From: Acidobacteriota bacterium
GTDB lineage: Bacteria; Acidobacteriota; Vicinamibacteria; Vicinamibacterales; JAKQTR01
Direction of reading: 5' to 3'
Assembly: GCA_026393675.1 (NCBI GenBank)
Contig: JAPKZQ010000012.1
Location: 1 to 64,000, forward strand
DNA length: 64,000 bases
A program made the position numbers and the translations under genes. Positions 13,585 to 18,798 of this stretch are shown piece by piece; the stretch's first letter is position 1; each line of letters starts with the position of its first letter. The notes beneath the pieces are model-generated. The model ran no database searches, was not told the DNA's origin, and was given only the letters and a program-made list of their open reading frames with translations.

Positions 13585-16500
13585 CTACTGTGCGGGTCGC
13601 TTCTCCAGTTCGACGGCGTACACGTGTGACGCGCCATGCATGTTCGACCGGAACACGAGCCACCGGCCATCGGGTGTGAAGGTCACGTTGGGTTCCAGGC
13701 TGTAGTTGTGCCCCGACAGATCGACCAGCGGCGTGGCCACCAGTCCGGCGGGCCCTGGCGTGAAGAGGTAGATCCACTGGCCATTGCCGGGTGCCGCCAC
13801 GCTTGCCGGGCCGCCGCCGTCACCGGCAAACAGCGTTCCGTCGGGCGACACGTTGAAGTGAACCGACCAATCTGCGCGGGCTACGGCATAGCGCACTGGT
13901 TGGCCGGTCGCCACGTCGACGCCGGCCAGCCAGAACACCTCGCTCTTTGGCGTCTGCAGGTCGTACCAGATCATGCGGCCGTCGGCGCTGAAGAACTCGT
14001 GCCCGGCAATCTCCATGTCCATCTGCCGCGTGTGCCGCTTTGTCAGGCCCGTGCCGTCGGTGCGTATGGTCCAGATACGATCCAGCTTGTGCCACGGTCC
14101 CTCGTGACAGAACATCAGCAGCGTGGGGTCAGTCGGTGAGAACTGGACGTGATTCAGCCAATCGGTGCTTCGATGCACCGTCTTGACGGCGCCTGACGCG
14201 ACGTCAATCGTATAGAGCGCCATCGGCAGCCGCGCTGCCCACCGGGCTTCGAGGCCGCCTCCGCTCGGCGCGGGCGGCGCGCCTTCCTCGACGAGGCTCC
14301 CTGCCAGCAACGATTCAGTCGCATTGAGCGTGAGGCCCGATCCGGTTCGCAGCAGGGGATTGCGCACCACGAGGCGCGTATCCTTCGTGTCGAGGTGCGT
14401 CACGTAGACGGCATCGTCCTTCAGATAGAAGACCTGGCGGGTTTTCGGGCCGACCACCACGTGGCTGACCCGTCCCGAGACGACACGTTCGATGGCCCGC
14501 GTCTTCATCTCCACCGTGGCGAGGCCGTCCGGCACCGTGATCAGCAGTTTGTCTCCCGTGGCGGTGTAGGCATTCTGGTGAAAGTAGAGCGACGCGCTTC
14601 CTGCCTCCTCCGAGAGTCGCACGATGCGATGGCCAGTGGCCGGATCGACCCACTCCCGAGGAGGAGCCGCCGGCGTGGCGGCGCCTCGAGCGACAGGCAG
14701 GAGGCGGACCCGATACGCGTGAGGCTGATCACCCGGGATGCGGTACGCCTCCATGGGATTCGCCAGCTTCGTCCAGCTGTCGATGCCCCCCACACCCATC
14801 TGCGCCATGTCGAGGTTCAGGTAAGTCTCAGAGCGTCTCGGCAGGTCGATCGAATAGGCCGCCTGTTCAATGTCGCTGGTCTTCACGTGGCGGGCGCCCA
14901 CGCTCAGCAGTGGGAGCCCTTCCGCCCTGAGTCCGAAGCCCTGCCGGTTGGTCAACTCCACCCAGCACACATCGACCTTGTTGCCGTTCTCCTGCGGACG
15001 GGCGTACTCCACCCACTCTCGGCTGACGGTCGAGGAGTACACGCCCACACGCTCAAACGCCCGGTCGCTATACGTCTCGCCCGGCCCGCGGCCGTACCAG
15101 GTCAGGTTTTCGAGTCCCGGGCTCGCGACCAGTTCCATGCCGAAGCGCGGCATCATGGCCACAGGCCCAGGACCCGGGCGGTAGTCGGCGTCGACGATCA
15201 TCTCGCCCGTTCCCCGGATGTCGTAGGTCATGGTGTAGCTGGCTCCCACGCGAGGCAGGGTCCCTTGCACGACGATGGTCGCCGCAGTGTCATCGACGCG
15301 CTTCACCTGCACGTCGGCCACTTTCCAGCCGCTGCCGGCCGACCTCCACGCCAGGATGTCGAGCGACGGATCAGTGCGGGCGGCGATTCCCTGAGCCTTC
15401 CAGGCACCGTTGTCGTTGTCGGTCGGCGCGCGCCAGAAGTCGGGGAGCGGACCCCGCTCGAGCAGCTTCACGCCCCGATAGGCATAGGAGGTCATGACGC
15501 CGTTCAATCGATCGAACACGAGCGCGAAGTCCCGGCCGCTGATTCGGACAAATGGCGCGCTGTCGACCATCCAGAGAGGAGTGGATGGCGCCGGCACATC
15601 CGACGTCGACGGCGGGCGGGGCGGAGCCGCGGGTAATGGCAGCGGCCACTGTTCCCAGGCGATCTCGTAACCCCGTTGTGCCCACCGCGTCTCGCGTTTC
15701 AACGTGAAGCTCACGTTGAGGAAGTACTCCACCCCGGGTTCGGCCCGAAGCACCGGAAGCCCCAACGTGACCGTCTTCTGCTGGCGCGGCGCCAGATCCA
15801 GTGTGGGCATCGGACCCGACGCCACGACGTGCCCGTTGGCGAGCACGTCCCACCGGCCCTCGACGAGATCCTTCGGGTTGATCTCGTCATACCAGCTCTT
15901 GATGGATATCGTTCCGGTGGCGAGGTCTACGGGCGCGGCGTGGAGGTACCGGTAGACATACTTGATCGCGCGCAGCCCGGGATGCGGCTGGCGGTCGGCC
16001 GCCACCAGGCCGTTCTGGCAGAAGTTGTTGTCGTTGTGGATGCCGGCGCGATCCTCCCAGTACCCGCCATAGGCGAAGAACGACGACCGGGCGTCGCCAT
16101 CGGTCCGTCTCGTCGACGGGATCGGCAGGCGGATGCCCTGGTCGACCCAGTCCCACACGAACGCCCCTTGCGCGTTGGTGCCCGAGTAGAAGACGTCCCA
16201 GTATTCCTTCAGCCCACCGCTGCTGTTGCCCATCGCGTGCGAGTACTCGCTGATGATGAGGGGCATGGTGGGCCGTTGCCGGGCCCGCTCGACGACGTCT
16301 GCCGGCGTCACGTAAAAGAACGAGTTAATGTCGGAGTTCGACCCGCCGTGCCGTGTGCTGCCCTGGTAGTGGACCGGGCGTGACGGATCGCGCTGCTTTA
16401 CAAACTGATACCCGGCCGCGAGATTGGGGCCGTCTCCGGCCTCGTTGCCGAGCGACCACCAGATGACGGATGGGTGGTTCTTGTCGCGTTCGACCATGCG

Positions 16501-18798
16501 GCGGATGCGATCGAGATGGGCCGGTTGCCACGCCAGATCGTTCGCCAGGCGATTGTCCGGGCCGAGGCCGTACGCGTGGCTCTCGATGTTCGCCTCGTCC
16601 ATCACGTACAGGCCGTACTCGTCGCACAGCGCGTACCATTCCGGATCGTTTGGATAGTGCGAGGTGCGCACGGCGTTGATGTTGTGCTGCTTCATCATCT
16701 CGATGTCGCGCACCATCCACGCCCGCTCGACGGCGTGGCCCGTGTCCGGGCTGTGCTCGTGGCGGTTCACGCCCTTCACGAGAATGGCCTGCCCGTTGAC
16801 GAGCAGGCGCCCGTCGCGAATTTCGACTGTCCGGAACCCGACGCGCGAGGGGATAACCTCGAGCACGCGTCCCGCAGCGTCGTGGAGTGTCAGGAGCGCC
16901 GTGTAGAGATACGGCGTCTCCGAGCTCCACCTGCGCGGCCCGCGAACCGGCAGCGCCAGCGATACCCGCTGTTCGGCGCGCGCAGCCACGCGGATGGCCT
17001 GGGAGACCATCTGCCCAACCTGGCGGCCGTCCGCGTCGAGCAACTGCATCGACGCGGAGGCCGCGCCCGGGGACCCCCCGCTATTGAGGACCATGATTGT
17101 CGCCCGGCAGGTGGCGTCGCGTCGCGCCTGGTCGAAGTCCGTGCGGAATTCGAAATCACGGATGTGCTGCGTTGGGGTGCTCCAGAGGTAGACGTCCCGG
17201 AAAATACCGCTCAGCCGGAACATGTCCTGATCTTCGAGATACGAGCCATCGCTCCAGCGGTACACCTCCACCGCGAGCAGGTTCGAGCCGGCGTGGGCGT
17301 GCGGCGTCACGTCTAACTCCGCCGGCGTGCGGCTGTCCTCGCTGTAGCCGATGCGTTGGCCGTTCAGCCACACGTAGAACGCGGAATCGACGCCGGCGAA
17401 GTGCAGCAGGATGCGGCGGCCGGTCCACCCCTCTGGCAGCTCGAAGACAGTCCTGTACGATCCCACCGGGTTGTCGTTGCGCTGAGCCCTGGGGTTCTTC
17501 GAGTCGTACGCGAACGGATACCGGGAGTTGCTGTAGATCGGCATGCCGAATCCCTGGAGTTCCCAGTTCCCGGGCACCCGGATGTCAGACCACGCGGTGT
17601 CATCGAAGGCGGGCCGCTCAAAACCCGCAGGTCTGGCGGCCGGGCTGGCCGAGTACTGGAACTTCCACGCGCCGTTCAGCGAGTGGAACCACGGCGACGC
17701 GTCTCGACGGCCCGTGCGAGCGAGGTCCGGCGTGGGATACACCATCATCGAGGCGTGCGGAGGTTCCGTATGGAGATGCAGCACGGCGGGGTCATCCCAT
17801 TCCTCCCGCGTCGCGGTGGACCACTCGGCGCCGGAAAATGTCGTCGCGAAAAACGCGGCGAAAGGGCGTCCTGGCATCGCGCGCAGCAACTCCACCACGG
17901 TCAACGCCGTCAACTGGGCACCGGCCGGGGACGTGTGTGTCCGGTCCCCGAAGAAGAACTCCTTGCCGACCCGATCCGCCCCGATCGCGTCGTAGTGACG
18001 AGCCACCTCCTCGTTGAGATTCAGCCATGGCACACCAATTGACTCGGCGATGGCCCGCGTCCACGCGACATAGTCGTCAGTCGCCCGGATCACCTTGTCG
18101 TCCTTCCAGTTGTTTCTCGGCACGAGGGAGCAGAGGATCGGGGTCACGCCGTTCGAGCGGGCGTCCGCCACGTACTTTCGCAGGTACCATCCGAAGCTGT
18201 GCACGACCTCGGCTCGGCCTGTCGCCTCCATGACGACGTCCTTCGTGTCTTCACCAATGCCTGGAAGCGTGCCGCGAGCCCGACCGGTATTCAGGGACCC
18301 GACGTCGTTGTGGCCGAACTGGATCAATACGTAGTCGCCACGCTTGACCTCCTTCAACACCTGGTCCCAGTGCCCCTCGGTCTGAAACGTGCGGCTGCTG
18401 CGGCCGCCAAGGGCGCGATTCACGACCCTGATTCTGGCGGCGTCGAAGTAATGCGCGATCGCCGTTCCCCAGCCGAGCTGGCCCGCCGTCGTGTTCTGGA
18501 CGGTCGAGTCGCCGACGATGAAGAGCGAAGGCCGAGCCGGCTCTGGCGCAAAGACGCGCCCGGCGTCCGAAGCCGGCCCAGAACTGAGGCTCACCGGCAG
18601 ACTGAACGCGCCCGGCGCGATGGTCGTCGCCAGCACCTGTTGAAAACCGGCAGACACGTCGCCAGGCCCGAAGTCGAAGGCGTACTGCGATGGAGGCGTT
18701 GAACCAGGAGAAGGAAGAGACTGCCTGGCAGTGCCCGCTGGACCTGCAAGGGCCAGTACGCAAACGACCGCCGCGGTGAACGATTTCAACCCTGACAT
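13585..18798 (-). CDS. Trimodular pectin enzyme: CE12 acetylesterase - GH2 beta-galactosidase - PL22-like domain
   Basis: A 1737-aa secreted fusion. The ATG at 18798 has TGGAGGAGG upstream and starts a signal peptide (residues 1-24). Module 1 (about 90-312) is an SGNH rhamnogalacturonan acetylesterase of the RhgT/CE12 type with GDSTV (96-100), GHND (162-165) and DRTHTS (285-290). Module 2 (about 330-1360) is a complete LacZ-like GH2 beta-galactosidase, with acid/base Glu in WWSLGNE (about 786) and nucleophile Glu in ISEYSHAMG (about 851). Module 3 (about 1381-1737) is a seven-bladed propeller of the oligogalacturonate-lyase family, with HVQFSPTDP and FCHEGPW. In module 3 the region that normally carries the QxxHxH manganese ligands reads SLEPNVTF, so lyase activity is doubtful. 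The gene follows GH105 by 62 bp. The combination suits acetylated, galactan-bearing RG-I. Confidence 0.9.

Follow-up and report, generated by a model that had tools for sequence, protein, structure and literature searches.

A conserved CE12-GH2-PL22-like fusion protein in a rhamnose-yielding uronate glycan locus of Acidobacteriota

The window analysed here, a stretch of 64,000 nucleotides from the Acidobacteriota contig JAPKZQ010000012.1 (assembly GCA_026393675.1), contains a gene which codes for a CE12-type esterase, a LacZ-type GH2 beta-galactosidase and a PL22-like propeller in one protein of 1737 amino acids (Table 1). This fusion is real, rare and conserved, and it joins domains of known enzyme kinds in a new combination. 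As had been claimed in an earlier reading made from the sequence alone (the sequence-only reading), the frame is continuous: a single minus-strand open reading frame (ORF) runs from an ATG at 18798 to a stop codon at 13585-13587 without internal stops, and GGAGGAGGGGC is found immediately 5′ of the ATG. The GC content at codon position 3 stays at 0.75-0.92 over both module joins. In a Pfam search of the complete product each of the three modules exceeds its gathering score, and the short linkers that had been anticipated could be placed between them. With at least two catalytic modules in one reading frame, the protein is a multi-catalytic carbohydrate-active enzyme. A hydrophobic stretch at the N-terminus resembles a Sec signal peptide, and the protein is probably exported, either to the periplasm or out of the cell.

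The sequence-only reading had considered all three modules complete, and this was confirmed. The motifs on which it relied are located at residues 96-100, 162-165 and 285-290 (CE12), 780-786 and 848-857 (GH2), and 1563-1569 (propeller). The CE12 module matches Lipase_GDSL_2 at residues 95-296 (54.6, gathering score 32.9), and its closest solved structure is the rhamnogalacturonan acetylesterase 1deo (2e-29), with which it shares the SGNH fold family. The active-site Ser, Gly, Asn, Asp and His are retained: S98, G132, N164, D285 and H288 align with 1deo and are identical in the second fusion described below. While stand-alone CE12 proteins of the phylum mostly have open frames of ~280-400 aa, CE12 is here the N-terminal module of a much larger protein. 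Five LacZ/GH2 Pfam domains, which is the complete set, span residues 371-1366 of the central module and include both catalytic Glu residues (E786, E851). The NCBIfam equivalog model for the beta-galactosidase Bga2A is passed at 1019.8 (cut-off 999), and the Thermotoga-type beta-galactosidase 6sd0 is the closest solved structure (2e-227). LacZ-type GH2 enzymes are exo-acting. The closest relatives of this module in the order are stand-alone proteins, whereas here it is sandwiched by two other catalytic-type modules.

For the third module, the assignment to PL22 holds only at the level of the fold. The Pectate_lyase22 profile matches residues 1384-1731 with a score of 60.7 (gathering score 30), and the closest solved structures are the oligogalacturonate lyases 3pe7 (5e-22) and 3c5m (3e-17), with sequence identities of 21-23%. 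A structure model (pLDDT 87) has the same two proteins as its best fold matches (TM 0.79, E 1e-26), 3pe7 first, with E-values 13 orders of magnitude ahead of the rest. Arg217, His242 and His287 of 3pe7 are retained, with R1574 corresponding to Arg217 and H1600 to His242, and the equivalents of R1574 and H1600 are invariant across all aligned relatives. However, Gln350, His353 and His355 are replaced by Tyr, Glu and Asn. Together with His287, these residues are what we take to be the metal ligands of 3pe7, so that only His287 is kept of four ligand positions. On this point the sequence-only reading had to be changed, and the replacement extends throughout the subfamily. Glu and Asn occupy their two positions in each of the 19 sequences of a first alignment with 3pe7 and 3c5m, and a second set of 28 sequences, drawn from several phyla, shows no variation at the Arg, the two His, the Tyr, the Glu or the Asn. 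This degree of conservation speaks for a site that still works, though in altered form, and against one that has been lost. We thus consider the module PL22-like, with a putative lyase activity. While the characterised PL22 oligogalacturonate lyase is cytoplasmic, this propeller would be exported via the signal peptide of the fusion. Our survey of literature on PL22, CE12, GH2, GH106 and rhamnogalacturonan found neither an activity nor a characterised member of the PL22-like subfamily.

A search for homologues with the same module order found one, in JAHECP010000001.1 ('Acidobacteria bacterium isolate Ww172'; G006, L031/L092), a genome from another family of the same order. Its modules are arranged identically in one ORF of 1676 aa. 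The two fusions share 60% identity in CE12, 71% in GH2, 72% in the propeller and 65-67% in the linkers, and they do not differ at any of the 15 active-site positions examined. Three neighbours are also common to both: the L-rhamnose isomerase (76%), the TonB-type outer-membrane protein (66%) and GH105 (79%). The alternative that separate genes were joined in assembly or sequencing has next to no probability: most of the nearest relatives of the individual modules are stand-alone proteins, but an independent genome of another family has the same architecture with conserved linkers at ~30% protein divergence, and frame and third-position GC are continuous over the joins. In trees, the GH2 modules of both fusions are united in one clade (SH-aLRT 93), and the two propellers fall into one supported group of six, which the tree does not resolve down to the pair. 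The simplest reading is a single fusion event, followed by descent or transfer.

In the second genome, a stop-to-stop frame of 2217 aa initially made GH105 a candidate for a fourth fused module. This was rejected, as GH105 is in another frame. It terminates shortly upstream of the fusion's ATG, and a TAG in the fusion frame is the terminal stop.

As had been supposed, the modules are usually separate proteins; their genes are often neighbours. Propeller and CE12 share a frame in two of 162 genomes of the order, and a sample of 396 genomes from the phylum yielded no further fusion. Among the best 80 of 552 confirmed propeller relatives in a scan of GTDB genomes the fusion occurred only in L092, a search which used the propeller alignment and which fusions with a propeller below ~50% identity would escape. 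In plasmids there was no match covering 80% of the query, and the CE12-GH2-PL22-like architecture was not found described in the literature surveyed. At the other 79 loci from GTDB the propeller has a gene of its own, in most cases with an open frame of ~400-480 codons. Within the fetched flanks of these loci, CE12 occurs in 13 and a GH2-family gene in 12; both are near the propeller in six loci (L100, L110, L113, L117, L135 and L137), and GH106 genes are near the propeller in six of the 79. As CE12 is otherwise scarce in the phylum (34 of 396 genomes at 1e-15), we informally estimate that its proximity to the propeller is well above chance. The GH2 neighbour at L137, the sole one checked by Pfam, is of a different GH2 type, and most of the others match the LacZ-type model only in part. 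The fusion thus joins functions that lie side by side elsewhere, and most likely it arose once, by joining genes that neighbour each other in other bacteria.

CE12 modules are also found in other fusions of the loci surveyed. In L042 (5522-7615, a frame of 698 codons) CE12 is joined to a pectinesterase domain and in L091 (3322-5958, 879 codons) to a Pec_lyase domain. In L104 (5365-6993), where a contig end cuts the gene, it is joined to GH106, which combines an esterase with an alpha-L-rhamnosidase, and a PL22-like gene is nearby. The CE12-GH2-PL22-like combination, by contrast, was seen in no genome other than this one and JAHECP010000001.1. Two long open frames, L032:7724-12700 (1659 codons) and L036:3852-8561 (1570 codons), have a Laminin_G_3 domain close to the N-terminus and a C-terminal CE12, with ~1000 residues between them that lack any Pfam match.

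The surroundings of the fusion are a rhamnose-yielding uronate glycan locus: they encode the release of unsaturated uronate and of rhamnose (GH105, GH106) and the catabolism of rhamnose (RhaI, RhaD and a kinase). Because GH105, GH106, GH51 and an L-rhamnose pathway are encoded together, rhamnogalacturonan I (RG-I) is the likeliest substrate as judged from gene content. In the genome, which is 98.6% complete, GH28, PL1, PL9, PL11 and GH53 were not detected with profile models, each of which gave matches in control genomes; for PL4 the model had no match in any control. As no endo-enzyme for the backbone or for galactan was found and the GH2 is of the exo-type, RG-I is more likely to be used in the form of oligosaccharides than as the polymer. 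The sequence-only reading had envisaged that RG-I and its galactan side chains are processed in one pass; the RG-I setting is borne out by GH105, GH106 and the rhamnose pathway, but a polymer, which one pass implies, fits less well than the trimming of oligosaccharides.

It is rather unlikely that the substrate is not RG-I but another glycan which contains rhamnose, galactose and uronate, such as an exopolysaccharide of bacteria or algae or a glycan of the arabinogalactan-protein or gum type. GH51, GH106 and GH2 are generally known to suit gum-like glycans as well, and the missing GH28, PL1, PL9, PL11 and GH53 would fit such a substrate. However, their lack is also compatible with the use of RG-I oligosaccharides, rhamnogalacturonan acetylesterase is the best match of the CE12 module, the GH106 is BT4145-like, and GH105 is adjacent. 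RG-I remains the leading candidate. A comparable sequence of steps is known from the RG-I locus BT4145-BT4183 of Bacteroides thetaiotaomicron, where RG-I oligosaccharides are processed in the periplasm by exo-beta-1,4-galactosidases, the acetyl esterase BT4158, lyases, unsaturated galacturonidases and the GH106 enzyme BT4145 (PMC8002723). There the steps reside on separate proteins, whereas here three are on one chain and the neighbours supply the next two; GH28 and PL11, in contrast to that locus, were not found in the genome.

We propose, with confidence evenly balanced, that the fusion is an exported three-step enzyme for RG-I oligosaccharides which feeds the neighbouring rhamnose pathway. 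The sequences establish the architecture, the catalytic residues of CE12 and GH2, the propeller fold, the gene content of the locus and the occurrence of the fusion in two families, while export, substrate, lyase activity and any advantage of combining the steps are inferences. As the three activities are physically tied, they are predicted to act on one substrate. The CE12 module would take acetyl groups off galacturonate and the LacZ-type GH2 module would take off terminal beta-galactose, while the propeller would cut beside uronate by beta-elimination and leave an unsaturated end. GH105 and GH106, encoded nearby, could then free the unsaturated uronate and L-rhamnose, and RhaI, kinase and aldolase of the same locus would catabolise the rhamnose. 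A lyase role for the propeller is suggested because GH105 requires an unsaturated substrate and PL1, PL9 and PL11 were not found to make it. Several points weigh against this proposal. Three of the four metal-ligand positions are replaced in the propeller, and the putative activities of all three modules rest on sequence. No endo-acting depolymerase for RG-I or galactan was found with the five models, so that the oligosaccharides would need an external source. Finally, the fusion is known from two genomes only, and its benefit may therefore be small.

The replaced positions would also fit a propeller that binds or positions uronate, or that has some other chemistry, in which case the protein would be a two-enzyme fusion of esterase and galactosidase with a targeting domain; seven-bladed propellers are generally known to bind ligands often without catalysis. 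We regard this as unlikely, given that neither the retained Arg and His residues nor the new Glu and Asn vary, which points to an altered rather than a lost site, that the same propeller is widespread as a stand-alone protein, and that GH105 requires an unsaturated substrate. If the propeller is indeed a lyase, a more specific version of our proposal is conceivable but doubtful: the PL22-like subfamily would form a distinct lyase class on RG-I oligosaccharides with a rebuilt metal site (His287, Tyr350, Glu353 and Asn355 in 3pe7 numbering), and the single chain of the fusion would carry out three RG-I steps in succession, in a host that lives on RG-I oligosaccharides freed by others.

Fused carbohydrate enzymes are common and multi-catalytic ones are well known, so that the general principle is unchanged. 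De-esterifying, debranching and lyase-like modules in one protein could aid the processing of pectin oligosaccharides. For the widespread PL22-like subfamily the fusion suggests a substrate that can be tested, and it is on the substrate and chemistry of this subfamily that further insight would be most useful.

Table 1. Features of the fusion gene and its surroundings, with positions in the window.
Position	Strand	Feature	Basis
13585..18798	-	CE12-GH2-PL22-like fusion gene, 1737 aa	ORF, Pfam; same architecture in L031
18724..18798	-	Likely Sec signal peptide, residues 1 to ~25, without lipobox	Read from sequence (hydrophobic stretch)
17863..18546	-	CE12-type SGNH esterase module, residues 85-312	Pfam, structure match, alignment
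17803..17862	-	Linker 1, residues ~313-332 (~20 residues)	Pfam boundaries, fusion comparison
14701..17802	-	LacZ-type GH2 beta-galactosidase module, residues 333-1366; E786, E851	Pfam, NCBIfam, structure match
14650..14700	-	Linker 2, residues ~1367-1383 (~17 residues)	Pfam boundaries, fusion comparison
13588..14649	-	PL22-like propeller module, residues 1384-1737; R1574, H1600, H1647, Y1699, E1702, N1704	Pfam, alignments, structure model
18861..20009	-	GH88/GH105, likely unsaturated uronyl hydrolase, directly upstream of fusion	Domain match
20148..23750	-	TonB-type outer-membrane protein (OMP_b-brl_4)	Domain match
24080..25369	-	L-rhamnose isomerase (RhaI)	NCBIfam TIGR02629 above cut-off
25595..26776	+	Probable sugar-responsive regulator, IclR helix-turn-helix and periplasmic-binding-protein domain	Pfam
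26911..29868	+	GH106 alpha-L-rhamnosidase, BT4145-like	Family matches
29945..31345	+	Permease-like protein	Weak match
31574..33925	+	Unassigned enzyme-like protein, GH65/GH95-like predicted fold	Structure model; beside PL22-like genes elsewhere
34402..35988	-	GH51-type alpha-L-arabinofuranosidase	Family matches
36048..38411	+	Bifunctional rhamnulose-1-phosphate aldolase (RhaD)/short-chain dehydrogenase	NCBIfam NF006189 above cut-off
38528..40054	+	FGGY sugar kinase, probably rhamnulokinase	Family match

In the region 26857-33925 of the locus, ORFs overlap on both strands, and those on the plus strand were taken as real because they have family matches or higher conservation. The enzyme-like protein encoded at its end (783 aa) has no Pfam family above cut-off. 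It shares 52-54% identity across aligned homologues from Acidobacteriota and Planctomycetota, and homologues adjoin PL22-like genes in L065, L098, L132 and L134. Its structure model (pLDDT 70) matches the folds of GH65, GH95 and GH139 at ~14% identity, which makes it a candidate for an unclassified glycoside hydrolase of rhamnose/pectin loci. The regulator gene between rhamnose isomerase and GH106 combines an IclR-type helix-turn-helix with a periplasmic-binding-protein sugar domain, a pairing that may be unusual. At the 3′ end of the fusion gene, the mechanical ORF list contains an overlapping ORF for a DUF1646 protein (12516-13670, minus strand), the true start of which probably lies internally.

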